This document shows, piece after piece, positions 44,439-62,504 of a stretch of 64,000 nucleotides of DNA (the first letter of the stretch is position 1; each line of letters opens with the position of its first letter). The position numbers were made by a program, and so were the translations under genes. Source of the stretch: Rubrivirga marina (GTDB lineage Bacteria > Bacteroidota > Rhodothermia > Rhodothermales > Rubricoccaceae); NCBI RefSeq assembly GCF_002283365.1, contig NZ_MQWD01000001.1, positions 435,694-499,693 of the forward strand, written 5' to 3'. Below the pieces are notes generated by a model, which saw only the letters and a list, made by a program, of their open reading frames with translations, searched no databases and had not been told where the DNA came from.

Positions 44439-44521
44439 GCCCGGATGGCGGAATGGTAGACGCGGCGGTCTCAAACACCGCTGGCTTCACGGCCGTGTGG
44501 GTTCGAGTCCCACTCCGGGCA
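44439..44521 (+). tRNA. tRNA-Leu (anticodon CAA)
   Basis: Acceptor GCCCGGA (44439-44445) pairs with TCCGGGC (44514-44520), discriminator A at 44521. The anticodon stem GCGGT/ACCGC encloses loop CTCAAAC, giving CAA. A variable arm of class II type and a T-loop GTTCGAGTCCC follow. CCA is not encoded. The 3' end is the probable attachment site of the downstream element. Confidence 0.95.
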
Positions 44522-44523
44522 CA
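44509..44523. other. attL core (tRNA-Leu 3' end)
   Basis: CCCACTCCGGGCACA. Covers the end of the T-arm and the acceptor strand of tRNA-Leu plus two bases, and is repeated exactly at 62490-62504. Confidence 0.75.
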
Positions 44524-44667: not shown

Positions 44668-45966
44668 ATGGCGACCGTCCGCCCCGTCCTCTGGGCCCAC
44701 AAGACGAACCGGCACGGGCACCACCCGATACGGCTCCGGTTCGCCGACGCCTCGGGGTCGCTCTACCTCTCGGTGGGGGCCTACGTCCACCCCCGGCACT
44801 GGAACGGGCGGGCCGAGCGCGTGCGGAAGACGCACGACCTCTACGAGGAGTACAACCGGCTCATCGAGACGAAGTTGAACGCGGCCGAGCGTGAGCGGCT
44901 CCGGCTCCTGACGATCGGCGAGGTCCCGACGGCCGCGGCGCTCAAGGCGGCCGTGGTGGGCAAGGGGTACACCGACTGCTTCCTCGACTTCGTGCAAGGG
45001 CACCTCGACGTCGTCGAGGAGCAGGGGAACGTCGGGCGGGTTCGGAAGGAGCGGGCCGTCATGGCCAAGCTGGAGGCGTTCGGCGGCTCCCCCCTCCCCT
45101 TCCGACGCCTCACGCCCGCCTTCCTCGACCGGTGGACGGCGTGGCTCCTGACGGAGCGGAAGAACAAGGCGTCGACGGTCGCCAGCGCGATCACGATCGT
45201 CCGGCTCCACTACAACCGGGCCGCCCGCCACGGCGTCGTGCGCGCCTCCGACTCGCCGTTCCACAACTACAAACCCCCGCGGATCGAGAAGCCGTCGCGG
45301 GCGAAGCTCACGGCCGACCAGGTGGCCGCGATCCAGGCCCTCGACTTCGGGCCGGCCGGGCCGGAGGGGTCCGGGCTCGCCAAGGTCCGCGACTGGTTCC
45401 TCTTCTCGCTCTACGCGCAGGGGATGCGGTTCTCGGACGTCGTCCAACTACGGCGGTCCGACGTCGTTCGCACGGAGGCGGGCGAAGACGACGACGGCGA
45501 GCCCATCGTGACGTACCGCGTTCGGTACCGAATGGGCAAGACGAAATCGACGAACGACGTGCTCCTCGTCCCCCAGGCCTTGGCCATCCTTGAGCCCTAC
45601 CTCGGCCGCGAGGTCCCCGCGAGCGGCGACGGAGGGGGAGAGGTCGAGGATCCCTATCTCTTCGACGCGCTCGACCGCTACGACACCTCGACCCCGGGGG
45701 GGCTCCACAAGGCGCTCTCCAGCCGGAACGCCTACGCCAACAAGGTCCTCCGCCAGATCGCCGAGCGGGCCAAGATCGAGGACCACCTCTCGTTCCACGT
45801 CGCGCGGCACACGTTCGCCGACCTCGCTCGGAAGGGCGGGTGGAGCGTGTACGACGTGAACCGGGCGCTCCGCCACTCCTCCCTCTCCATCACGGACGGG
45901 TACCTCGCCGGGTTCGACGCCGAGGCCCTCGACGAGCGGATGCGGGGCCTCTTCGGCGGCCGGTAA
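44668..45966 (+). CDS. int: Tyrosine recombinase (integrase)
   Basis: Site-specific integrase, 432 residues. An N-terminal Arm-binding-like part ('HHPIRLRFADASGSLYLSVGAYVHPRHWNGR') of the Bacteroidota transposon type and a SAM-like core-binding domain (about 105-200) precede the catalytic domain (about 215-430). Catalytic residues are Arg254 ('GMRFSDVVQL'), His377-x-x-Arg380 ('HVARHTFADL'), His403 ('LRHSSLSITDGYL') and the nucleophile Tyr412. It starts 147 bp after the tRNA-Leu 3' end and presumably recombines the 15-bp att cores. Confidence 0.93.
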   Translation: MATVRPVLWAHKTNRHGHHPIRLRFADASGSLYLSVGAYVHPRHWNGRAERVRKTHDLYEEYNRLIETKLNAAERERLRLLTIGEVPTAAALKAAVVGKGYTDCFLDFVQGHLDVVEEQGNVGRVRKERAVMAKLEAFGGSPLPFRRLTPAFLDRWTAWLLTERKNKASTVASAITIVRLHYNRAARHGVVRASDSPFHNYKPPRIEKPSRAKLTADQVAAIQALDFGPAGPEGSGLAKVRDWFLFSLYAQGMRFSDVVQLRRSDVVRTEAGEDDDGEPIVTYRVRYRMGKTKSTNDVLLVPQALAILEPYLGREVPASGDGGGEVEDPYLFDALDRYDTSTPGGLHKALSSRNAYANKVLRQIAERAKIEDHLSFHVARHTFADLARKGGWSVYDVNRALRHSSLSITDGYLAGFDAEALDERMRGLFGGR

Positions 45967-47192: not shown

Positions 47193-47265
47193 AGAAACCA
47201 CGCGACGTTGGTCGTGGTGGCGGTAGATGCCGTCGGACGTTGGATGCGTACCCACCGTGTCACCG

Positions 47266-47571
47266 ATGACCGACTTCGCCGGAGTCATTCAGGAGCTAGT
47301 CCGCACCACGTCAGAGCAGGTCGCGGAGCGGACGGCCCGACGCCTCCTCAACGAACTCGTCCCCCACCTTCGGCGATCGCCGGGCCGGCCCTCAATCGGG
47401 TTCCTCACGAACCGCGAGGCGCAGGCCGCCTTGGGGGTGTCGAAGGCGACCCTCGCGAGGTGGAGGAAGGACGGGACGCTCGCGCACTCGAAGGTCGGGC
47501 AGAACGTGTACTACGCGATCGCCGACGTCGAGGGGCTCCTCGCTAGCCGCCGCGTCCGGCGCGAGGGGTAA
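47266..47571 (+). CDS. Excisionase-like helix-turn-helix protein
   Basis: 101 residues from ATG 47266. The C-terminal half 'LTNREAQAALGVSKATLARWRKDG' (in two parts) followed by 'SKVGQNVYYAIADVEGLL' is the HTH_17/MerR-like fold used by excisionases of Bacteroidota integrative elements. The N-terminal half is a helix that may dimerise. Position after the integrase and before the RepA-like ATPase fits a role in excision or in control of the element. Confidence 0.82.
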   Translation: MTDFAGVIQELVRTTSEQVAERTARRLLNELVPHLRRSPGRPSIGFLTNREAQAALGVSKATLARWRKDGTLAHSKVGQNVYYAIADVEGLLASRRVRREG

Positions 47572-47670: not shown

Positions 47671-48837
47671 ATGCTAGCACCAAATCCCGGGCCGTCAGCG
47701 GCCCCGTCCACGGACTCCGTCCCCGCTCTCCCCGGCGTCCTCGCCTCCGAGGTCGAGAGCGTCCCCGTCCACTGGCTCTGGCGGGGACGGCTGGCCCTCG
47801 GGAAGATGACGATCCTCGACGGGGACCCCGGCCTCGGGAAGTCGACGTTGTACGCGGCGATCGCTGCCTGCGTGACCCTCGGGAGGGAGTGGCCCGACGG
47901 CGGGCACTGCGAGCACCCGGGAGCCGTCGTCGTCGTGACCGGCGAGGACGACCCCGCCGACACGATCCGGCCTCGCCTAGAAGCGTCCGGGGCCGACCTC
48001 ACGCAGGTCCGCGTGCTCGACGTAGTCCAAGACCTCCGCGGGCCGCGCACCGCCGTCTTCCCCCGAGACACGGAGCTCGTGGCCCGGGTGTGCTCGGAGA
48101 TGGGGGCGACGCTCCTCGTCGTCGACCCATTCTCGGCGCACCTGGAGGGGTCCGTGGACTCGCACAACGACGCGAGCGTCCGGTCCGCCCTGGCCCCGTT
48201 GCAGGAGACCGCCCGGCGCCACGGGTTCGCCGTCCTCCTTGTCCGCCACCTCAACAAGTCCGGCGGGTCGAAGGCGATCTATCGGGGGATGGGGTCGATC
48301 GGCGTCATCGGGGCCGCCCGGATCGGCCTCGTCGTCGCGGAGGACCCGACGGACCCGGCCCCGCAGGGGGAGCGCCGGGTGGTCCTCGCGACGCACAAGA
48401 ACAACGTGATGAAGTGGGCTCCGTCGCTCGCGTTCCGGATTGTGGACTCGCCCGAACACGGGGCCGGCGTGGTCCAGTGGGAGGGGCCCACCGGACTCCG
48501 GGCCGACGACCTGTTCGAGCCCGCGATGCGGTCGTCGTCCCCAGTCCAGGACGACGCCGAGTCGTTCCTTCAGGCCGCGCTTTCGACGGGTCCCCGGCCG
48601 TCGAGGGAGGTCGAGGCCGAGGCCGAGGAGGTCGGCGTCAGCAAGACCGCCCTTCGCCGCGCCCGCCAGTCCCTCGGCGTCGATCACCGCCGCGAGGGGT
48701 TCGGGGCGGACGGGGTGTACTACTGGTTCCTCCCGGAGCAGGGGGACGGGACGAGCTCGCATACGCCCAAGCTCGCCATGCCCGACCCCTCCCTGGAGGG
48801 GGGCAACCTTGACGAGCATGGGGACGAGTCCCCGTAG
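47671..48837 (+). CDS. RepA-like AAA ATPase (AAA_25, replicative helicase type)
   Basis: RecA-fold ATPase, 388 residues. Walker A 'GDPGLGKST' is at residues 51-59 and Walker B 'LLVVDPFSAHLEG' near 148-155, followed by 'VLLVRHLNKSGGSKAIYRGMG', typical of AAA_25/RepA-type hexameric helicases of plasmids and integrative elements. The C-terminal 80 residues ('SREVEAEAEEVGVSKTALRRA') look like a winged helix. It probably unwinds DNA for replication of the excised element. No separate primase gene was found in the island. Confidence 0.85.
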   Translation: MLAPNPGPSAAPSTDSVPALPGVLASEVESVPVHWLWRGRLALGKMTILDGDPGLGKSTLYAAIAACVTLGREWPDGGHCEHPGAVVVVTGEDDPADTIRPRLEASGADLTQVRVLDVVQDLRGPRTAVFPRDTELVARVCSEMGATLLVVDPFSAHLEGSVDSHNDASVRSALAPLQETARRHGFAVLLVRHLNKSGGSKAIYRGMGSIGVIGAARIGLVVAEDPTDPAPQGERRVVLATHKNNVMKWAPSLAFRIVDSPEHGAGVVQWEGPTGLRADDLFEPAMRSSSPVQDDAESFLQAALSTGPRPSREVEAEAEEVGVSKTALRRARQSLGVDHRREGFGADGVYYWFLPEQGDGTSSHTPKLAMPDPSLEGGNLDEHGDESP

Positions 48838-49079: not shown

Positions 49080-50165
49080 TTAGCCGTCGAGGTCGAACGC
49101 CTCGGCGAGCCGGTCGAGCGTGAAGCGGTTCCTGAGCTTGCACGCCGGGTTCTGGTTCGCAAACATCCCCGTCTCCCACACGGCCTCGCTAGCCGGTCGG
49201 GCCTGGTCCCACTCGACGCTTACGACCCATTCGCAGAGGTCGTCGTTGTCGGAGTGCTCCCGCATCCTCAGAGCCTCTAGGGGGACGTCGTGGAGCGGGA
49301 CTGTCTGCCCGTTCACCTCAACAGTGACGTCACGTGAGGGGCGGGCCTCGGCCGTCACCGTCCCGACGCCGACGTATCCAGTTCCAGGAATGTGAGCGGA
49401 GACCCTGTGACCCGGGCGGAGGGCCCTCATCCTCTGGCTCGCCCACTTGCCCTCCCCGGCCGAGACGAAACCGTACCGCCGGAAGTCCTCCCACGTCCGG
49501 TGCGGGCCCTCGCCGACCGAGACGTAGAAGTCGGTCCCGTTCCAGGGCTCCTGCTTCTTCGCCTTCGTCGCACGGACCGGACCGGGCCGGGCCTCGGCCT
49601 CAGACGGGTCGATCAGCCACGTCCGCGCGAGGTACTCGTGCCCGTTCTCCTCGAAGTAACGGAAGAAGACGGCGTTGACGGGGACGCCGTACGTGTCCGA
49701 GAGGTACCCGATGATCCGTTCCGTGCTCGGGTCGAGCTTGGCCGCTACGACGATGAGCCGGTGCGACGTGTTCACGGCCTCGGGTGGGCCGGCCCCGAAC
49801 CGCTCAGCGAACGCGGCCTCGAAGTCTTCGCCGCCGTTGTTGTCGGCGAACAGGGCGGCCACGTCCTCGTAGGTCAGGCCCTCCGCCCAAGAGCCGTAAT
49901 CGAGGACCTGCCCGACGACCTCCCGCGGGGTCCGGTCCCGCTTGAGCTCGACGACGACGAGGTCCCCTTCCTCGTCGATGGCGAGGAGATCGACGAACCC
50001 CCCGAAGGCCGTCGTGATTTGGCGCCCGACGAGGAGGAGACCAGGGTCCAGGACGGACAGGTCGGAGGCGAGGACATCTTCGAGCCGGCTCTCTAAGGGA
50101 AGGGCCGAGAAGTGGATGGGGACGAGGCCGCCGTCGATCCGCCAGATTCCGAGTTCGAGAGGCAT
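49080..50165 (-). CDS. PD-(D/E)XK nuclease-like protein (DUF91/NucS type)
   Basis: 361 residues. The N-terminal domain (about 30-175) carries a PD-(D/E)XK core: Asp59 in 'GGFVDLLAIDEEGDLVVVEL', then Glu73-L-Lys75, and Gln86 in 'REVVGQVLDYGSW'. This matches the DUF91/NucS-like endonuclease fold. The C-terminal part (about 200-361, 'NGTDFYVSVGEGPHRTWEDFRRYGFV') is a separate domain often found on such proteins. It is encoded 9 bp after the MmeI-like gene on the same strand, so the two probably form a defence operon, with this protein as an accessory nuclease or nucleic-acid sensor. Confidence 0.82.
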   Translation of the reverse strand: MPLELGIWRIDGGLVPIHFSALPLESRLEDVLASDLSVLDPGLLLVGRQITTAFGGFVDLLAIDEEGDLVVVELKRDRTPREVVGQVLDYGSWAEGLTYEDVAALFADNNGGEDFEAAFAERFGAGPPEAVNTSHRLIVVAAKLDPSTERIIGYLSDTYGVPVNAVFFRYFEENGHEYLARTWLIDPSEAEARPGPVRATKAKKQEPWNGTDFYVSVGEGPHRTWEDFRRYGFVSAGEGKWASQRMRALRPGHRVSAHIPGTGYVGVGTVTAEARPSRDVTVEVNGQTVPLHDVPLEALRMREHSDNDDLCEWVVSVEWDQARPASEAVWETGMFANQNPACKLRNRFTLDRLAEAFDLDG

Positions 50166-50174
50166 GAGTCAGGT

Positions 50175-53100
50175 TTACAAAGTGAAGGCATCGCCGACGT
50201 GGTGGACGAGGCCGAGTTCGGCGAGCGCGTCGAGGACTTCCTCGGCGGCGCGCGGCGTGGCCCCGTCGAAGCGGGCGGCGACCTCGGCCGGCGTCGAGGC
50301 CCCGGCGGCGACGGCCTGACGCACGGCGACCGTCCGTCCGGCGAGCGCGTCGGGCCACGGGCGCGTATCGGGCTCGTCGTCGACAGCGACGGGGGCGGGC
50401 GTGCGGAGGTCGAGCCCGCCCTGCGCTGGGGCCCCGGGGTTCTGGAACGCCGGGCGGAGGTACCGGACGGTCCCGGCCTCCTCCTCGGCGCGGCGCTCGG
50501 CGTTGAGCGCAACGAGCCGGTCGAGGACGGCGGCGCGGAAGGTGGGGGCCTCGGCGTCGAGATCGCCCCAGCCGTAGGCGTCGAGGACGGCCCGGTCGAG
50601 CCGGCGGTGGAGGTCGAGGAGCGTGTGAGCGAGCCCGTCGTCTGCGGCCCGCCGTTCCTTGGCCGTCAGGTCGCGGCCGAGGCGGAGGGCCTGGACGGCG
50701 TTGTAGAGGTCCGTCAGGCCGAGGCCGGGGTGCTCGGACTGGCGGGCCTTCCGGTGCGCGTCGATGGCTTCGCCGAACTGGCGGATGGCATCGGCCTGGG
50801 CGTCCGTCGCGTTGGGGAAGGGGAAGGGCTGGAAACAGCGCGTCGTGTTGTACACGGGATCGTTCCCCACGCCGAGCCGCCCGCCGGCCCGATCTGCCCA
50901 CTCGCCGTGGACACTGCTCGATAACACGCCGAGGTGGTAGGCGTCGTCGAAGGCGATGGCGATGATCTTATGCTCAGGGAGGATCGAAGCGTCGAGGAAC
51001 TGGAACAGCCGGTGCTTGGCCGTCTCCGGCGTGGCGATGTACCTGGGGAGGCCGGCGAGCGCGGAACGGAGCGTCGGGCGTGGTTCGGCGAAGAGCCACC
51101 AGTTCTCCCGGTAGCTCTTACGCCGGTTCGTGTCCCGAGCGGGTTTCACTTCCCGGACCAGCCGCTCGAAGGCCTCCGGGTACCTGTCGCGGGTCTCGTC
51201 CGCCGTGAGCCCGTAGAAGTCGAGCGCGTACCGCTCCCTCGGCGGCGCTGTCAAGTCCCGGCCGTTGAGCGTCGGCCGGACGTGGGGGTCGTCGCCCACT
51301 TGGGCCTTCATCCGCTCGGCCTCGTCCGGCGTGAGGACGAAGCCTCGGCCTGAGAACATCGACCCGACGCTGCTAATGCCTTGGTTCGCGTCGAGCGGTT
51401 CGGCCTGCGTCACGTCGGCGCCGACCGTCAGGTCCGCGTTGATCGAGCCGACGTAGTCGGTCAGGTCCACCTCAGCGATCCCGTCGCCGTCGTCGTCGCG
51501 CTCGTGCGTCACGACCGCGAGCCGGCCAGCGTCCGGGGGGAAGTCGTCAGCCCGAACGCCCGTCGTCATGGCGACGCGCACGTCGGCGGCGTCCGCCGAG
51601 TCCACCCATGGGTGATCTGGGATGGCAAACGCAAGAGCGAGCGAGGGGACCTCGCCTCCGCCTGTGAACAGCCCGTCGGCGCCGGGTCGATCCGCAACCG
51701 GCTCGCCGTCTAACTGTCGGTCAATCACCCGCCGGTTGAACGTCTGGGGCAGCGAGTTCGTCGTGACGAGCCCGAAGCGCTGGACCTCGCCTCGGCGCAC
51801 GGCCTCGGCCGAGCGGTGCCACCAGTAGAGCACGAAGTCGGCTGAGCCCGGGACGGCGGGGTACGCCTTCGCCAGCGCGTCGAGGTAGCCCTGTCCGAGC
51901 GCGGTCCGCATTGGCTCGCCCTTCCCTAGAAACGGCGGGTTGCCGACGATGAACTCGGCGTCGGGCCACGGGGCCGGCTCGCCCGCCTCAGTCAGGACGG
52001 CGTCCCGGTGCTCGACCTGGCCGTACCCCTCCAGCACCGGCTCGGGGAGCGGCTGGCTCCCCCCGTACCGGCGCCTATGCCACTGGAGGTACCCGATCCA
52101 CAGGACGAGGTCGGCGATGGCCGCCGCCCGCGCGTTGAGCTCGATCCCCCGCATCTGGCGCGGCGTCACGCCGAACCCCTCGCCGACGGCCTCGCCGACG
52201 AGCCCCTCGGCCGCCCGCCGGGCCTCGTCCTCCAGCGCCTTGAGCCCGGCGAACGTGACGTAGAGGAAGTTGCCGGACCCGCACGCCGGGTCGAGCACGC
52301 GGACCGACGCTAGGCGCGTGAGGAACCCCGCGAGGACGGCCCGCGCCTCGTTCCGGAGCCGGGTCCGTTGCCCGCCCGACGCGTCCTCGGCCCGCTCGAT
52401 GAGCTGGGTCGCCGCCGCCCGAGCCCCGTCCCACTCCTCCCGGAGCGGCTCCAGCACGGTCGGCCCGACGAGCCGCTCGACGTAGGCCCGCGGCGTGAAG
52501 TGGGCCCCGAGCGCGTGGCGCTCCGCCGGGTCGAGCGCGCGCTCGATGAGCGTCCCGAAGATCGACGGCTCGACCTCGGCCCAGTCCGACCGGGAGGCGT
52601 CGAGGAGCGCGGCCCGCTGGTCCTCGGTGAGCCGGGGCGTCCGGGTGTCCTTGAAGAGGAGCCCGTTGAACCGCCGGACGTGCTCGCGGACCTCGCCGAC
52701 GTACCCGCCCTCGTCCATCGTCCGGAAGAAGTGGGCCAGCGCGTGGGGGAGGTGGTCGAGGTCGTCGGCGTACGCCTCGAGGAGCCGGCGGAACGCGCCC
52801 TCGGGGATGAGCCCGGCGTCCTCGGCGAACATCGAGAAGAGGCACCGCGAGAGGAAGGAGGCCACGGCCTCGGCGTCCATCGGCGCCCCGTCCGCGTCGG
52901 TCGCCCCGTCGAGCGACGTCGCCAGCGTGGCGAGCTCGTCGGCGAGCTCGACCGTCACGCGGGCCTGGCGCCGGGCCGGGTCGAGTGAGAGCGGGTCCTC
53001 GAAGACGGCCGCCAGCGTCGCCCGCGTCTCCGGGTCCGCCAGGTCGCCTAAGCGGACCCGGTTCCGCTCGGCGTCCGGGAACGGGCGGTAGAGCCTGCCG

Positions 53101-53579
53101 GACCCGGAGAAGTCGGCGTAGAGGTCGAGGCAGAACCCGACGTCGCACACGACGACGAACGGGGGCGGGGGCTCGGCGGCCTCCAGGTTCCGGGCGTACC
53201 CCTCGGCCTGGTTCCGCGCGGCCTGCATCGTGGCCTCCCACGCCCGCGTCCCTCGGCGCCCGTGGCCCTGCCTCAGCTTCCGACCGCCCTCGGTCCGCTT
53301 GGCGTCGGCCCCCTGCTTCGTCTCCAGCACGAAGGCCCCGCGCTTGTAGAGGTCGACGAACCCCTTGGACTGGCGGCCGTCGCGGAACGTGAGCGGGCGC
53401 TCGTAAACGTAGGCGTCGGCCCGCGTGTCGCCCGTCGCGTAGTGCGGGCGCTCGACGCCAAGGACGTCCGCCAGCCCGTTCAAGAACGTCTGGGCGTTCG
53501 CGCGCTCGGCCCCGCCGGACGCGGCGGCGTCGCGGAGGAATTCGTCGAGGTCGATGCGGGGCTCGTAGACGTCGGGCAC
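50175..53579 (-). CDS. MmeI-like type IIG restriction-methylation enzyme
   Basis: 1134 residues joining nuclease and methyltransferase in one chain. N-terminal PD-(D/E)XK site: Asp76, Glu86, Lys88 in 'KGFVDLYKRGAFVLETKQG'. Methyltransferase motif I 'VLDPACGSGNFLYVTFAG' is near 433 and motif IV 'FIVGNPPFLGKG' near 545, the gamma-class N6-adenine order. 'MRGIELNARAAAIADLVLWIG' is typical of the MmeI/type IIL group. Residues about 700-950 are the target-recognition region. The last 55 residues form a winged-helix-like tail ('STPAEVAARFDGATPRAAEEV'). It cuts unmodified DNA and marks host DNA; no separate methylase is needed. Confidence 0.9.
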   Translation of the reverse strand: MPDVYEPRIDLDEFLRDAAASGGAERANAQTFLNGLADVLGVERPHYATGDTRADAYVYERPLTFRDGRQSKGFVDLYKRGAFVLETKQGADAKRTEGGRKLRQGHGRRGTRAWEATMQAARNQAEGYARNLEAAEPPPPFVVVCDVGFCLDLYADFSGSGRLYRPFPDAERNRVRLGDLADPETRATLAAVFEDPLSLDPARRQARVTVELADELATLATSLDGATDADGAPMDAEAVASFLSRCLFSMFAEDAGLIPEGAFRRLLEAYADDLDHLPHALAHFFRTMDEGGYVGEVREHVRRFNGLLFKDTRTPRLTEDQRAALLDASRSDWAEVEPSIFGTLIERALDPAERHALGAHFTPRAYVERLVGPTVLEPLREEWDGARAAATQLIERAEDASGGQRTRLRNEARAVLAGFLTRLASVRVLDPACGSGNFLYVTFAGLKALEDEARRAAEGLVGEAVGEGFGVTPRQMRGIELNARAAAIADLVLWIGYLQWHRRRYGGSQPLPEPVLEGYGQVEHRDAVLTEAGEPAPWPDAEFIVGNPPFLGKGEPMRTALGQGYLDALAKAYPAVPGSADFVLYWWHRSAEAVRRGEVQRFGLVTTNSLPQTFNRRVIDRQLDGEPVADRPGADGLFTGGGEVPSLALAFAIPDHPWVDSADAADVRVAMTTGVRADDFPPDAGRLAVVTHERDDDGDGIAEVDLTDYVGSINADLTVGADVTQAEPLDANQGISSVGSMFSGRGFVLTPDEAERMKAQVGDDPHVRPTLNGRDLTAPPRERYALDFYGLTADETRDRYPEAFERLVREVKPARDTNRRKSYRENWWLFAEPRPTLRSALAGLPRYIATPETAKHRLFQFLDASILPEHKIIAIAFDDAYHLGVLSSSVHGEWADRAGGRLGVGNDPVYNTTRCFQPFPFPNATDAQADAIRQFGEAIDAHRKARQSEHPGLGLTDLYNAVQALRLGRDLTAKERRAADDGLAHTLLDLHRRLDRAVLDAYGWGDLDAEAPTFRAAVLDRLVALNAERRAEEEAGTVRYLRPAFQNPGAPAQGGLDLRTPAPVAVDDEPDTRPWPDALAGRTVAVRQAVAAGASTPAEVAARFDGATPRAAEEVLDALAELGLVHHVGDAFTL

Positions 53580-53805: not shown

Positions 53806-54729
53806 ATGGACACAACCCTCTCCGATCCCATAGACGGCCCGTTCGACTCGATCCGAGAGCACGTCGAACGGCTCCATCGGGTGGTGAAGGGGCTCGACGC
53901 CGCGAGAGTCCGGTTCCTTGACGCGACGCGTGACTTCGAGGTCGCCCCGCTCCGGGCCCGGGCGATCGAGAAGCTCAGGGCGTACGACGACCCGGCAGCG
54001 GAGAAGGCCCGCCGGACCGTCGAGGCCGCGAGGGAGGCCCGCCACCGCATCGGGGCCCGACTCGGCGCCGACGCCCACATGTCGTCGGTCGTCTCCCACC
54101 TCGCTCTGGGGACCCACCTGCTCCTCAGCGGGCTCCAGGGCCGCGCCGTCGCGGTCGCGGTCCGCGGGGGGACCGACGGGCTCCGCGAGATCGAGGACAA
54201 GCTCGTGGCCCTCATGGGGCTCGCCCCCCGACCGCCGTCCGACCCGCTCCCCCACGGCGACCCGGCCGAGTTCCGCGGGCTCCTCCTCCTCGCCGAGGAC
54301 GTCGTCCGGTACTCCGCGATCGCCGTCGACTCGGCGACCCTCGCTCTGTCCGACTACGCCGGGGCCCTCAGTGCCTACGTCGGCGAGCCCCCGCCCGGTC
54401 GCGTGGAGACGGTGGCCCGGATCGCGAGGGAGGCGGCGCTCGAACAGGCCGGGGGGCTGATGAGCGAGCAGGCCCTCCAAGCGGCCCTCCGCGCGCTCTC
54501 CCTCGCGGCCCCCCTCGTGGCCGTCGTCCTAGAGGCCCTGACGCTCGGGCTGGCGATCAAGGAGCGCGTCGAGGACGAGGCGGCCGAGCGGGCCGTGACC
54601 CGGAACCCCGACGACGAGCTCTCCGACCTCCTCGACGCCCTCGGCGAGAGCGAGGCGCGGCTGGACGACGCCGAGCGGTTCGCTCGGACGACGACGGAGG
54701 AGGTCCTGGCCATCGTGCGGGGGGTGTAG
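53806..54729 (+). CDS. Helical island protein with hydrophobic C-terminal region, unknown
   Basis: 307 residues, almost entirely helical and alanine-rich. N-terminal part contains long amphipathic helices ('FDSIREHVERLHRVVKGLDAA', 'AEKARRTVEAAREARHRIG'). A stretch near residues 215-255 ('ALQAALRALSLAAPLVAVVLEALTLGLAI' in two parts) is hydrophobic enough to insert in a membrane. The tail is acidic. It is divergent from the restriction enzyme. No family recognised. A membrane-active effector is possible but unproven. Confidence 0.65.
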   Translation: MDTTLSDPIDGPFDSIREHVERLHRVVKGLDAARVRFLDATRDFEVAPLRARAIEKLRAYDDPAAEKARRTVEAAREARHRIGARLGADAHMSSVVSHLALGTHLLLSGLQGRAVAVAVRGGTDGLREIEDKLVALMGLAPRPPSDPLPHGDPAEFRGLLLLAEDVVRYSAIAVDSATLALSDYAGALSAYVGEPPPGRVETVARIAREAALEQAGGLMSEQALQAALRALSLAAPLVAVVLEALTLGLAIKERVEDEAAERAVTRNPDDELSDLLDALGESEARLDDAERFARTTTEEVLAIVRGV

Positions 54730-56561: not shown

Positions 56562-56833
56562 TCCCCCCCTTAAAAGCAGGGCCCTGGGGTATCCGTCGGC
56601 CGTTTCGCCCCGTGCCACCGGGCGGACCCCGGAGCGAGTCGGACCCGACGGCCCCCGTCCCGCTCAGGCGAAGGCGCCGCCGCGCGACTCGCGGGCCCGG
56701 CGGCCGCCAGGTTCAGGTCCTGCGCGAGGAGAGGCCGCAGTCGATTTCACGGCTCGAATCGTGCTCGGGGGCTTGACTGTGGAGGATGGGAGCCGGATCA
56801 TCGGCGCACGTCCCCCCCGTACGAACCTGCCGC

Positions 56834-58846
56834 ATGAGCGGCGCTACCGTGCGGATCATTAAGGCGGGAAAAGGAACCCTGCACGTCGACGCTGAATCGG
56901 GGGACGCGACGCTCGTCCTCCCCTTGGAGTTCGACCTCGAACCGAACGAGAGCCCGACGCTCTACGGCGCCTCGCTCCACTACGTGTCCCTGGGGCGGGA
57001 ACGGGTCGGCGAGGGCGAGGAGGTCGGTCTCGTACCGGTCCGCCCGAACGACCCCGACACGTTCCCGATCAGGCTGAGGGGGGACGACGACGTCCCTGAC
57101 AAAGTCCAGTTCGTGGTCAAGTTCGAGGCCCCCGACCTCCCCGAGGTAAGTGGGAAGAGGCCGGGCGAGCTCGTCTTGGACCTGAGTGTCCGGGGGAAGC
57201 ACGTGCTCCCCGTCCGGGTCCGGTTCCAGTGGAGCCCGGCGCGTGCCTTGTCACAGAGAGGCTCCGACGTCGTCGTCGTGGAGGTGGGGCGGGGCCGGCA
57301 ACCCCGCGAGCTCCGTACGAACTTCGGGGCCCTCCTCCTCCTCTTCGCCGCCGTGTTCGCGTGGAACGCGACCTACAACGACGGGGTGAGGGGCGGGTGG
57401 ACTTCGCCCGTCCTCGTCGCCAGCGCGGCTTCGTTCGCCCTCGGGTTCTTCGGGCTCCAGATCGTCGCCCTGGCCGGGTGGTTCCGCACCCTCTCGGGCA
57501 TCATCGCCGTCTGGCGGTACCCCGAGCTCTACTTGGAGCCGGCCACGGTGACCATCCTCGGGGCGAAGGCGACGGCGCCGATCCTGGCCACCCTCGGCCT
57601 CGCCCTCGCGGCGGTCGGGTGGTCCGGCCGTGCCGTCGTGCTGCCCGACCCGGGGGACGGGTACGCGTGGGTCTACGACGACGATCGGAACCACGAGGTC
57701 CGGCCCGGAGACAAGATCCCCCTTCGGGAGGCCAAGCGGGTCGTTCTGACCTGGGAAGACTCCTCGCGAGTGGCCCGGAGGATCCAACTAGCGAGGGCCC
57801 GCACGGCGGTCGATTGGTCGGAGTGGTTCGGGAGCCTCGCGCCTCGGCTGGCCGTCGACTACGACACGTTCAGCGTGGTCTACAGCGAGGGCGTCAGCCT
57901 CAGTAGGACCGGGGACTGCGACCCCGAGAGGGACGAGGAGGGGAGCTACCGGGGGGAGTTCACGGTCGAGGACGACCTCGCCTCCCCATGCGTGAACTGG
58001 ATCCGCCCGCAGGTCGTCGCGGTTCTCAAGGGGGCCAGGCGAGCGCCAGGGGACGACCTGACGGTCGAGGGGACGGGCCGTACGCTGGCCGACCTCACCG
58101 AGGTCAGCGTGAGGAGGACTCGGGACCTCGATTCGGGCGCGATCGCGGACCGGTTCGGGTCCGAGTGGGACGCCGAGCTGACCCGCCACACGGCGTACGA
58201 CCTCCTGCGGTCGCTCGACCTCGACGCCCTCATCGCCCCGGCCGCGCGGGAGATGGTGGACCGGAGAGAGCGGATCCTCAGGCGCGACTTCATGGAGTCG
58301 TACGGGCGCCGGGCCGAGGTGGTCGAGACGGGGGGGATTGAAGAGCGAATCCAGAGCCTCGTGTTTCTCCGGGCCCTCGCCCGGCTCAGCGCCCGGACGG
58401 GGTCGAGCGCGCTGCGGGACGACGACCTCCGCCGGGTCCGAGACGACTTCGAGGCGTACTACGCCGTCCCACGTGGGACGACGGACGTCGTCGGGAGCCG
58501 GGACGTCTTCCGGGCATACGTCCAGTTCCTCATGGAACTGGAGCGGCGCCACCTCGCCTCGCCGTACGTCGACTCCCTCGGGATGGCCGTCGAGGGAGTC
58601 GCCAGGGGACTGGGGGACATATACGAGCTCTACCTGGAGGAGGCGCTGGCCTTCGACCTGCTCTACGGAGAGAGCGGGGGGCAGGACCGGTGCGCCAGGC
58701 GCCGCGAGTTCCTTCTGCGGAGCTTCCAGGCCCAGGTCGACCGGAATCCGGCCGGAGTTCGGGCCTACGTCGATTCCCTTATGCGGCACGAGCGACGACT
58801 CCGAGGAGACGGGCCGGTGCGGGAGTTCGTCGGCCGACTCGCTTGA
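56834..58846 (+). CDS. Large membrane protein of unknown family
   Basis: 670 residues from ATG 56834. Residues 1-160 are a beta-rich soluble domain ('GTLHVDAESGDATLVLPLEF', 'VQFVVKFEAPDLPEV'). Three membrane spans follow at about 165-182 ('LLLLFAAVFAWNATY'), 191-217 ('VLVASAASFALGFFGLQIVAL') and 245-268 ('ILATLGLALAAVGWSG'). The remaining 400 residues are soluble: a beta-rich part ('WVYDDDRNHEVRPGDKIPL') and then long helices ('AAREMVDRRERILRRDF'). With three spans, the N- and C-terminal domains lie on opposite sides of the membrane. It converges with the zinc-ribbon nuclease gene. No known family recognised. Confidence 0.8.
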   Translation: MSGATVRIIKAGKGTLHVDAESGDATLVLPLEFDLEPNESPTLYGASLHYVSLGRERVGEGEEVGLVPVRPNDPDTFPIRLRGDDDVPDKVQFVVKFEAPDLPEVSGKRPGELVLDLSVRGKHVLPVRVRFQWSPARALSQRGSDVVVVEVGRGRQPRELRTNFGALLLLFAAVFAWNATYNDGVRGGWTSPVLVASAASFALGFFGLQIVALAGWFRTLSGIIAVWRYPELYLEPATVTILGAKATAPILATLGLALAAVGWSGRAVVLPDPGDGYAWVYDDDRNHEVRPGDKIPLREAKRVVLTWEDSSRVARRIQLARARTAVDWSEWFGSLAPRLAVDYDTFSVVYSEGVSLSRTGDCDPERDEEGSYRGEFTVEDDLASPCVNWIRPQVVAVLKGARRAPGDDLTVEGTGRTLADLTEVSVRRTRDLDSGAIADRFGSEWDAELTRHTAYDLLRSLDLDALIAPAAREMVDRRERILRRDFMESYGRRAEVVETGGIEERIQSLVFLRALARLSARTGSSALRDDDLRRVRDDFEAYYAVPRGTTDVVGSRDVFRAYVQFLMELERRHLASPYVDSLGMAVEGVARGLGDIYELYLEEALAFDLLYGESGGQDRCARRREFLLRSFQAQVDRNPAGVRAYVDSLMRHERRLRGDGPVREFVGRLA

Positions 58847-58980: not shown

Positions 58981-61368
58981 CTAGAAGTAGGGGTCAGGGG
59001 CAAGGCGAAGCGTCCGGACGTGGGTCTCCATGGGGAGGGCGTCGCGAACGACCTGAATTGATCCGGCCTCCTGGTCATCGGTCCAAGTCTCTGCCGGAGC
59101 GGCGAGCACGATCTCATCGGCAGCGACGGCGGCAGCGACGGTGGCGAGCGTTGCGAGTTGGCGATCGTCGAACCCGGACGCCGAGGACTTGACTTCGCCT
59201 ACGACGAGACGGCCGTCGAGTAGGATGCATACGTCGAGGTCCGTAAAGGGAGCGGCGTCGTAGCCTTCGCGCAGATCGAGTGGTGGCCACACCCGAGCGT
59301 GGGTACGAGCATCCCTCGCGAGCGCGTAGGCGGTGTCGATGAGGGGGAGCACGGCGTCGTCGGCGATGGCCGAGCGGACGAGCCCGTTGAGCTGGTAGAA
59401 CCAGCCTGGGTCGGCAGGGAGCGCGAAGGGGCGGAGGCACTCCGGGCACCGGACGGTCCGCGCGAGGTCGTCGACGGGGTGCCACCGGGAGAGGCTGCAC
59501 GACGGGCACCGGAGGTCGGTCCCCTGGAGGAACACGCCCTGCTCGACCAGCCACTCGAAGTCTGGCCAGCCTTCCTCCTCGAACGACGGACGCTGGTCCC
59601 TGGGCACGTCGGGATAAGCCTCCCTGACCGCCCGGTGGTACGCGGCCTTTACGTCGTGCTTGCGGACGGTGTCCCCCGCGCGCCGCATGGTGCGGTTGAG
59701 CTTCGAAGCGAGTTCTGTGGCTAGGCTCTCGGCCGTCCGGTCGCCGCGCTCGTCCAGGAGGCGTCGCGCGATGGCGACCTGGGCCTCCCGGGAGGCGACG
59801 GGGTCGCCCGCCGCTCGGAGCAACTGCTTTCGCCAGAACGAGCTGCCGAGGACCTGTCCGGCCTTGTAGATGCCCCCGAAGAGGTCGACGGCCGCCTGAA
59901 ACCGCCGCCCCTGCTCCGAGGCTGCGACGTGGCCGATACGGGGCGTCGGGGCGTCCTGTGCTTCCTCCGTCGTGAGGAGGGCGTTGGCGACGGCCCATGG
60001 GTCGGGGACTCGAAGCGTAACAGTGGGGTGGTCGACGGTCGCGCTGACGGAAGGAAGCCCACCGTTCACGACCCTCCACGCTCGTGGCCACGCCCCCTGC
60101 TGGAGGAACGGGTGGACGAGTGCGGGGCGTCTGGGGAGACGCCAGCGAGGGGAGACGTTGACGGATCGGGCAGGCGTCGTGTCGTCGACGAGGTCGAGGT
60201 CCACCATCCATCCGCCGTCGCCGTCGGAGGCCACCACGACCGGGGGCGTGACCGGAGAGGCGGTGGCCTCGGCGTTGGTGACGACGGCGGTGGCCGACGT
60301 CGAGAGGAGGGGGAGGCGCTCCCTGAAGGGGCGGTGCCCGGTCCGCGACGGCTCCCCGGAGAATGGGAGCGACGCAGGGTCGAAGGATTCAGTGGAGACG
60401 GACCCGATTGTGCCGAGGGCCTCGGAGAGCGCGTCGAGGCGGTCGACCGCGACGGTGGCGCTTTCGATCACCAAGCCGTGGGGTCCCTGGGAGGACCGCC
60501 CCATCTGGTCCCTGGCCCACAAGCGGAGCGCGTCGAGGAACGCGGCGTCGTTGGCGAGCGAGGTGGGGAGCCACAGGACCCGGCCGCGGGGGTGCGACGT
60601 GACGGACCGGTTCCACGCCCGCAGCGCGTCGGAGACCGAGTCGCCCACGACGACGGCGTGGGCGGGAGTGGGGAGGTAGCCGGGGGCGAATGGGGTCGGG
60701 GCGTACTCCCTGCACAAGAACCGGTAGTGGAGACACCGGACGTCGGTGAGCTCGGCGAGGACAGCGGCCTCCGATTTCTCGTTGAGGAGGATCTCACGGG
60801 TGGGCAGGCTCTTGAGCTCGTGCGCGAGGGGCCACGAGGCCCGGGGGTAGCCGAAGTTGCGCTGGACGAACCGTCGGGCGGGGAACGTCGGCGCGGGGCG
60901 CCCACCGAGGTACTGCTCTTCGAACCACACGAGCGGCGTGTCCGACGAGAAGAAATGGGCTTGGCGCTGGTGGTGGCGGAAGACGCCCGTCGATGCGAGG
61001 GGCCGGATTGGCCAGCCGGTTCGGACGAGGGGGTGGCTGTCGGCGGGGTCGACGGGCCGGACTTCCAGGTGGGCGGGCCCGATCTCGACCTCGATCCTCC
61101 GCTTGAGGTCGTCCGACAAGTCGAAGGCAGCCGTGACCACGTCGGGGTCGGTGAGCGAGAGGAGGCGCCAGTAGTCGTCGGAGATCGTCTCGCCGTCGGT
61201 GGGGATGATGGGCCAGAAGCCGCCGCCCCACGCGCCCTGGCAGGTCTCGATGAGTGCGTCGAAGGCGTCGGCCGGAAGAGTGTCTGGGGCTACGAGGAAG
61301 GCCGCGCGGAGGGGGCGCGTTCGGGTCTCTAGGCGGAGAGTCGGGGACGGATAGGAAGATTTCTGCAT
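58981..61368 (-). CDS. Zinc-ribbon and PD-(D/E)XK nuclease-like protein, unknown family
   Basis: 795 residues. The N-terminal region (about 20-200) has 'LIETCQGAWGGGFWPIIPTD' and 'YWRLLSLTDPDVV', a distinctive pair of motifs. The middle (200-560) is mixed alpha/beta without recognisable motifs. A zinc ribbon lies at about 622-646 ('LRCPSCSLSRWHPVDD', then 'VRCPECLRPF'). The C-terminal domain (about 680-795) carries a nuclease-like PD-(D/E)XK core: 'TDLDVCILLDGRLVVGEVKSS' in parts, with Asp, Glu and Lys in the right order. This suggests recognition by the large N-terminal part and cleavage by the C-terminal domain, as in a stand-alone anti-phage nuclease. No known system was recognised. Confidence 0.82.
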   Translation of the reverse strand: MQKSSYPSPTLRLETRTRPLRAAFLVAPDTLPADAFDALIETCQGAWGGGFWPIIPTDGETISDDYWRLLSLTDPDVVTAAFDLSDDLKRRIEVEIGPAHLEVRPVDPADSHPLVRTGWPIRPLASTGVFRHHQRQAHFFSSDTPLVWFEEQYLGGRPAPTFPARRFVQRNFGYPRASWPLAHELKSLPTREILLNEKSEAAVLAELTDVRCLHYRFLCREYAPTPFAPGYLPTPAHAVVVGDSVSDALRAWNRSVTSHPRGRVLWLPTSLANDAAFLDALRLWARDQMGRSSQGPHGLVIESATVAVDRLDALSEALGTIGSVSTESFDPASLPFSGEPSRTGHRPFRERLPLLSTSATAVVTNAEATASPVTPPVVVASDGDGGWMVDLDLVDDTTPARSVNVSPRWRLPRRPALVHPFLQQGAWPRAWRVVNGGLPSVSATVDHPTVTLRVPDPWAVANALLTTEEAQDAPTPRIGHVAASEQGRRFQAAVDLFGGIYKAGQVLGSSFWRKQLLRAAGDPVASREAQVAIARRLLDERGDRTAESLATELASKLNRTMRRAGDTVRKHDVKAAYHRAVREAYPDVPRDQRPSFEEEGWPDFEWLVEQGVFLQGTDLRCPSCSLSRWHPVDDLARTVRCPECLRPFALPADPGWFYQLNGLVRSAIADDAVLPLIDTAYALARDARTHARVWPPLDLREGYDAAPFTDLDVCILLDGRLVVGEVKSSASGFDDRQLATLATVAAAVAADEIVLAAPAETWTDDQEAGSIQVVRDALPMETHVRTLRLAPDPYF

Positions 61369-61648: not shown

Positions 61649-62149
61649 TCAAGCGGCCACGCGCCGGAGGCCCTTCCCATTTGGCAGGTGGAACCCGACG
61701 TGGCTCGTCACGACGCCCCACACGACGAGGTCCTGCCCGTCGAGGAGCTCGATCGGCTCGTGGTCCGGGTTCGCAGCCAGCAGAACCACCCTCTCTCCCC
61801 GCCGGACGTACCGCTTAACGGTCAGCTCGCCGTCGACGGCGGCCACGACGACCATCCCCGACTCGGGCTCGATGGCACGGTCGACGACCAGCACGTCGCC
61901 GTCGCGGATCCCCTCGTCCCGCATCGACCACCCCTCGGCCCGGCAGAAGAACACGCTCGGGGACGAGGCCCCAAGGAGGTCGCGGAGGTCGAGCTCGCCC
62001 TCGGCGTAGTCGTCGGCCGGGGACGGGAAGCCCGCGGCGACGTCCGAGGCGAAGAACGGGAGCCACGGGCCGGGCGGGAGGTCGGCCGCCGTCCCGATGA
62101 CGGTGACGCGGCCGGACGTAGCCGGCGGGGGTGTGAGCGCGAGGGGCAT
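61649..62149 (-). CDS. umuD: UmuD-like S24 self-cleaving peptidase
   Basis: 166 residues. The cleavage region 'AAGFPSPADDYAEGELDL' matches UmuD, with the expected cut at Gly40-Phe41. The catalytic Ser75 ('AEGWSMRDEGI') and Lys112 ('TVKRY') are both present. UmuD is processed during the SOS response and then works with UmuC as DNA polymerase V. No umuC is in the window, so it may pair with a chromosomal UmuC or act as a regulator of the element. It is the last island gene before attR. No clear LexA box was seen upstream. Confidence 0.88.
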   Translation of the reverse strand: MPLALTPPPATSGRVTVIGTAADLPPGPWLPFFASDVAAGFPSPADDYAEGELDLRDLLGASSPSVFFCRAEGWSMRDEGIRDGDVLVVDRAIEPESGMVVVAAVDGELTVKRYVRRGERVVLLAANPDHEPIELLDGQDLVVWGVVTSHVGFHLPNGKGLRRVAA

Positions 62150-62489: not shown

Positions 62490-62504
62490 CCCACTCCGGG
62501 CACA
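62490..62504. other. attR core
   Basis: Exact 15-bp copy of the tRNA-Leu 3' end (44509-44523). It also forms the right half of a 7-bp inverted repeat TGTGCCC-N7-GGGCACA (62484-62504). Confidence 0.7.

Follow-up and report, generated by a model that had tools for sequence, protein, structure and literature searches.

A gene for a 795-aa protein, carried on a mobile island of Rubrivirga marina, belongs to a rare family that is unnamed in the libraries used and is found in bacteria and one archaeon. The C-terminal domain of its product is, by profile comparison, akin to the Card1/Can2 endonucleases, which are its closest relatives. The best explanation, offered here tentatively, is that the protein is a stand-alone, infection-activated defence nuclease acting against mobile elements and resembling the orphan CARF-nucleases. 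The window referred to throughout is the whole 64,000-nucleotide stretch of DNA that was analysed (contig NZ_MQWD01000001.1, positions 435,694 to 499,693) and its features are collected in Table 1.

Table 1. Features of the island and of the 795-aa gene, in window positions
Feature	Position	Strand	Basis or remark
tRNA-Leu	44439-44522		
Left attachment repeat CCCACTCCGGGCACA, at 3' end of tRNA-Leu	44509..44523	+	
Island tyrosine integrase	44668..45966	+	PF00589, PF13102, PF17293
HTH_17 protein, excisionase/regulator-like	47227..47571	+	
AAA_25 (RepA-like) ATPase	47671..48837	+	
Candidate defence gene PDC-S11, NucS_C-like domain	49080..50165	-	E 9e-149; directly adjoins type IIG enzyme
MmeI-like type IIG restriction-methyltransferase	50175..53579	-	
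Island protein, 307 aa, no family match	53806-54729		
686-aa protein, no family match	56786..58846	+	Convergent with nuclease gene
795-aa gene, orphan PD-(D/E)XK nuclease family	58981..61368	-	ATG start; full-length homologues
PD-(D/E)XK nuclease domain, Card1/Can2 type, residues 662-795; D712, E725, K727	58984..59385	-	Model, conservation, profiles
Zinc ribbon, residues 613-660, C621xxC624 + C641xxC644	59389..59532	-	Model, conservation 27/27
Helical linker (mostly), residues 457-584	59617..60000	-	DSSP of model
Second Rossmann-like unit, residues 236-395; conserved D247, N253, S303, W387; presumed CARF-aligned part	60184..60663	-	Model, conservation
First alpha/beta unit, residues 11-103; conserved WGG(x4)IIP + DPD	61060..61338	-	Model, conservation
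Orphan umuD, 280 bp upstream of nuclease gene	61649..62149	-	Same strand as nuclease gene
Right attachment repeat, exact 15-bp copy	62490..62504	+	

The gene and its family

Full-length homologues in unrelated organisms show that the 795-aa frame is a genuine gene rather than a spurious reading frame of a genome with 70% GC. The family set comprised 27 members (25 full-length proteins and two C-terminal fragments) from Bacteroidota, Pseudomonadota, Actinomycetota, one CPR bacterium (a Gottesmanbacteria MAG) and one archaeon, Methanobrevibacter cuticularis. Homologues are carried on plasmids of Burkholderia glumae, Piscirickettsia salmonis, Rhodococcus, Streptomyces and Kitasatospora, with further ones in Bacteroidota, Methylococcales, Burkholderiales and Actinomycetota; most of them are 14-28% identical to the window protein. 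The gene was present in about 1% of sampled genomes, with figures of 5 of 395 for the window's phylum and 5 of 398 for the phylum of the Methylococcales locus L023 (the window's own genome and that of L023 being counted), and each of ten full host genomes examined had a single locus. A phage origin of the gene is unsupported, neither phage records nor alignment-based scans of viral contigs having yielded relatives. In a maximum-likelihood tree the Methanobrevibacter protein was sister to the protein of a Bacteroidota MAG (support 100/99) and the phyla were mixed, which implies horizontal transfer across both phyla and domains; the window protein sits on a long branch, on account of which its exact placement is uncertain. 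At L028 (9992-12458) and on plasmids NZ_CP108209 and NZ_AP022602 the gene is disrupted or incomplete, a sign of turnover.

Conservation is concentrated in a few elements of the protein. An earlier note, made from the DNA sequence by itself, had described a single 795-residue gene ending in a two-CxxC zinc ribbon and a nuclease core of the form D...GEVK, and this description holds across full-length homologues. The core consists of D712 followed by G724-E725-V-K727; in the family alignment the four zinc-ribbon cysteines, D712 and E725 are invariant (27/27), and K727 is kept in 25 of the 27 members and replaced by threonine in two. The threonine-bearing members (L030 754-3201 and L053 8219-10816) may be inactive or have a variant active site. 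The spacing between C624 and C641 is 17 in 24 of 25 proteins, that between D712 and E725 is 13 in 19 of 25, and position 710 is E/D, with a glutamate in 20 of 25, giving an ExD pattern with D712 that is followed by ExK. The WGG..IIP and DPD motifs near the N-terminus, which the same note had thought conserved in style, are indeed hallmarks of the family, namely W47-G48-G49 (19/24, 21/24 and 23/24), P56 (22/24) and P75-D76 (23/25 for D76), and D247, N253, S303, P412, R432 and G437 are conserved as well.

No sequence match to the 795-aa protein was obtained in Pfam, PADLOC (2023 families), NCBIfam or the PDB, and matches to RpfC and an amine transaminase are ascribed to chance. A search confined to open-access papers found no description of the architecture. 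A sigma-70 scan, which is uninformative for the host's group, returned no promoter for the gene. The earlier statement that the N-terminal motifs match no nameable system is borne out in that no library names the protein, but for the protein as a whole it needs qualifying: the nuclease is of the Card1/Can2 PD-(D/E)XK type, and the overall order of folds is like that of CARF-nucleases.

The nuclease domain

The relationship with Card1 emerged when an alignment of the Card1 family, built from PF09002 members, was compared by hhalign with the C-terminal profile of the new family. The Card1 endonuclease profile scored 54.9 at a probability of 93%, with the ExD and ExK motifs aligned, against a peak of 17.7 for 60 column-shuffled profiles, 11.5 for a reversed profile and 28.2 for Mrr. 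Direct searches were less productive, PF09002 giving no match in 11 members at E<=1 and the PADLOC CARF_PDDEXK model matching a single member weakly (E 0.026), with no more than the catalytic strands covered. The known proteins of this kind, Can2, Card1 and VC1899 (DUF1887, CARF + PD-(D/E)XK, PF09002), share with the family an ExD...ExK active site and show the highest profile similarity to it, and in Can2 the active-site residues are Glu276/Asp278 (PMC7969007). With its active site invariant, the family is likely to consist of functional nucleases, and it is on this pattern of residues that we infer nuclease activity for the 795-aa protein. Mrr-like type IV restriction nucleases also belong to the PD-(D/E)XK superfamily and also occur in a defence context, but their profile match is weaker, and the front part of Mrr is a small specificity domain whereas in the new family the nuclease is preceded by a zinc ribbon and a pair of alpha/beta units.

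The front half of the protein

The AlphaFold model of the window protein was weak (pLDDT 59), with residues 98-235 not confidently modelled, and the usable model is that of the Methanobrevibacter homologue (pLDDT 71, pTM 0.72). The latter begins with an alpha/beta unit (24-104), a poorly modelled stretch and a Rossmann-like unit (239-343) with strands at 365-372 and 399-404, after which come the helical linker, the zinc ribbon and the nuclease. When this model was submitted to Foldseek all eight PDB matches at E<=1e-3 were CARF-nucleases (VC1899, Cdn1 and Can2), and Can2 and VC1899 also led the matches of the window model. The matches span 463-599 columns; should they extend to the C-terminus, they are too short to take in the first unit, so the CARF-like part is presumably the second unit. 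The family resembles Can2, Card1 and VC1899 in having a Rossmann-like domain followed by a nuclease, and these are its top fold matches in the PDB; it differs from them in being twice as long, with an extra N-terminal alpha/beta unit, a helical region and a zinc ribbon, and it has neither a CARF signature in its sequence nor a link to Cas10, and reaches the threshold of no Pfam or PADLOC model.

Several results set limits on this resemblance. As regards the six-stranded Rossmann-like fold of CARF domains, Foldseek put CARF-nucleases first for both models, yet global superposition on the CARF-nucleases was poor, with TM-scores of 0.15-0.34; hhalign comparison of the front half and its two sub-units with the N-termini of the Card1 family gave probabilities below 1%. 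The CARF signature is a K/R after strand 4, in the motif [DN]X[ST]XXX[RK], and some CARF families lack it (PMC4012209). There is no conserved K/R among residues 230-400 of the family, the conserved positions there being D247, N253, S303 and W387, so the K/R element is absent. In view of the poor superposition, the missing sequence signal and the missing K/R, the protein is best termed "CARF-like in architecture", rather than a CARF protein by test. The suggestion in the earlier note that sensor and cutter are combined in one chain is partly borne out: the family retains the zinc ribbon and the D/E/K core, and the architecture is a plausible one for such a combination.

Possible sources of a signal

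The messenger of type III CRISPR was considered and, as a general signal, rejected. No Cas10 match was found in the window's genome, and among 19 host genomes one had a strong match to the Cas10 palm, other matches being weak and obtained with a model that also matches in E. coli. Because Cas10 is absent here and in nearly all of the hosts sampled, cA4 from type III CRISPR is unlikely to be the ligand. SMODS cyclases were likewise missing from the window's own genome and none was recognised among the neighbours scanned, the scanning of homologue neighbours having been selective; SMODS matches were present in six of the 19 host genomes. The absence of Cas10 from nearly all hosts and of SMODS from most indicates that the trigger is not the product of a linked known cyclase. 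There is precedent for such independence: VC1899 is described as an orphan CARF-nuclease that is not regulated by cA4 (PMC7969007), and members of the new family resemble it in occurring without type III CRISPR.

Neighbours of the homologues

At a number of loci the gene is found among defence genes. It follows a type I RM cluster in Methylococcales (L023), is flanked by Gabija and Upx genes at L024 and by AbiH and type I RM in a Flavobacterium (L025), adjoins TIR, Schlafen and methylase genes (L030), and at L033 is separated by 98 bp from an AbiZ-like gene upstream. No defence neighbour was recognised at about half of the loci (e.g. L019, L020, L027, L028, L029 and L031), and a controlled neighbourhood test using leave-one-out phmmer gave 3/24 against 0/20, a result that is underpowered and not significant. 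The gene-neighbourhood survey that the earlier note had advised bears it out in that the homologues occur sporadically, have moved horizontally and in many cases have defence or mobility genes as neighbours, but not in any significant enrichment. No constant partner gene was present at the inspected loci, and so no signal-producing enzyme is evident. Large proteins end 10 bp (L053 4529-8209) and 39 bp (L024 6726-9965) upstream of homologues and might represent a recurrent partner; the L024 protein is an AAA/STAND-like ATPase and that at L053 is a 1226-aa protein with a GSSGAGKS-like P-loop and no library match.

The proximity of RM systems to the gene in the window and at L023, L025 and L030 raises the question of a restriction-type endonuclease, in which the front half and zinc ribbon would recognise incoming DNA, modified or unmodified, and the PD-(D/E)XK domain would cut it with neither a messenger nor cell suicide. 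Binding to DNA would be in keeping with a PD-(D/E)XK domain that is accompanied by a zinc ribbon and a helical linker, and type IV enzymes are solo genes too. However, the Mrr-type profile scores lower than that of Card1 (28 vs 55), there is no constant methylase partner and the folds matched best belong to enzymes gated by a ligand or to the orphan relative of these, and this explanation is considered rather unlikely.

Mobility genes are also frequent near the homologues. Tyrosine-recombinase genes adjoin the gene on the B. glumae and R. erythropolis plasmids (loci L002 and L004); at L054 the gene starts 29 bp after an integrase. At L006 (8306-13567), close to one end of a linear plasmid, the Kitasatospora homologue is followed at once by Mu/Tns-like genes for a transposase and an ATPase. 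Such neighbours (the plasmid recombinases, the Kitasatospora transposase and ATPase and the integrase at L054) could mean that the nuclease serves the mobile elements themselves, in transposition, integration or plasmid competition, in a role comparable to that of TnsA. This is improbable, as the recombination genes are of different kinds at different loci (tyrosine, serine, DDE) and some loci have none, several members are embedded in clusters of defence genes, and islands of the tyrosine-recombinase type need no extra nuclease. A TnsA-type role in particular would be at odds with the lack of constant TnsB/TnsC partners, Mu/Tns-like neighbours having been seen at only one inspected locus.

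The host island

In R. marina the gene is part of an island of approximately 18 kb that is inserted in tRNA-Leu and bracketed by a 15-bp exact direct repeat of the 3' end of the tRNA. The claim of a mobile island with a restriction enzyme was accurate, the tRNA-Leu, integrase, repeats and MmeI-like type IIG enzyme all being in place. A joined empty site was not found in relatives, in which the side with the tRNA and paralogues of that with the ATPase were detected, but never together. The P-type ATPase to the right of the island does not lie beside tRNA-Leu in related genomes, so another insertion, or a rearrangement, may be present there.

The umuD gene upstream, which is apparently without a umuC, could be taken to point to a toxin-like or stress-response nuclease that has no antiviral role and is possibly linked to DNA damage, and nucleases of the PD-(D/E)XK fold do serve in repair. 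Against this, copies of umuD that are 91-95% identical occur elsewhere in the same genome and in a congener without the nuclease gene, so that umuD was rejected as a fixed partner; it was seen at no inspected homologue locus, and a patchy distribution of about 1% fits core repair badly. A role of this kind is thought very improbable.

Proposed function

The reading preferred here remains that of a stand-alone, infection-activated nuclease. The solo gene, the lack of a constant partner and the order of sensor and nuclease speak for a single chain that both senses and cuts. The Rossmann-like front part would sense infection, in all likelihood through a small-molecule ligand as in the fold-matched CARF-nucleases, the conserved zinc ribbon and helical linker would either couple sensing to the C-terminal nuclease or hold nucleic acid for it, and the putatively metal-dependent Card1/Can2-type domain would then cut nucleic acid, either blocking the invader or halting the cell. 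The gene itself would travel as cargo of integrative elements and plasmids. It is probably defence cargo, an unrecognised stand-alone anti-virus gene, and ligand gating, target and defence role are all matters that we infer for the protein. By description, not by sequence, it may be likened to the single-protein PD-(D/E)XK systems of DefensePredictor, which have solo or small loci, unrelated accessory domains and a patchy spread; that work tested E. coli systems (PMC13092281).

In proposing a candidate unrecognised defence nuclease the earlier note was right as to the missing name, the conserved core and the mobile and defence context; neighbourhood enrichment, which was not significant, does not add to its case. 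As for the outcomes it had listed as speaking against this proposal, homologues at the inspected loci do not lie mainly next to housekeeping genes, the D/E/K residues are not lost across the family, and no confident match to a non-defence family was obtained. A more specific, and somewhat doubtful, version would make the family a CRISPR-independent ligand-gated nuclease, with a strongly diverged CARF-like (or new Rossmann) sensor and a Card1-type nuclease in one chain, carried by bacteria and archaea as a single-gene defence cargo and responding to a messenger or metabolite that comes from neither Cas10 nor a linked CBASS cyclase.

If this is a defence gene, then current defence detectors have missed a single-gene family that crosses domains, and nucleases of the Card1/Can2 type work outside type III CRISPR. 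It would also become possible to test which signal activates VC1899 and other orphan CARF-nucleases where there is no Cas10 messenger.
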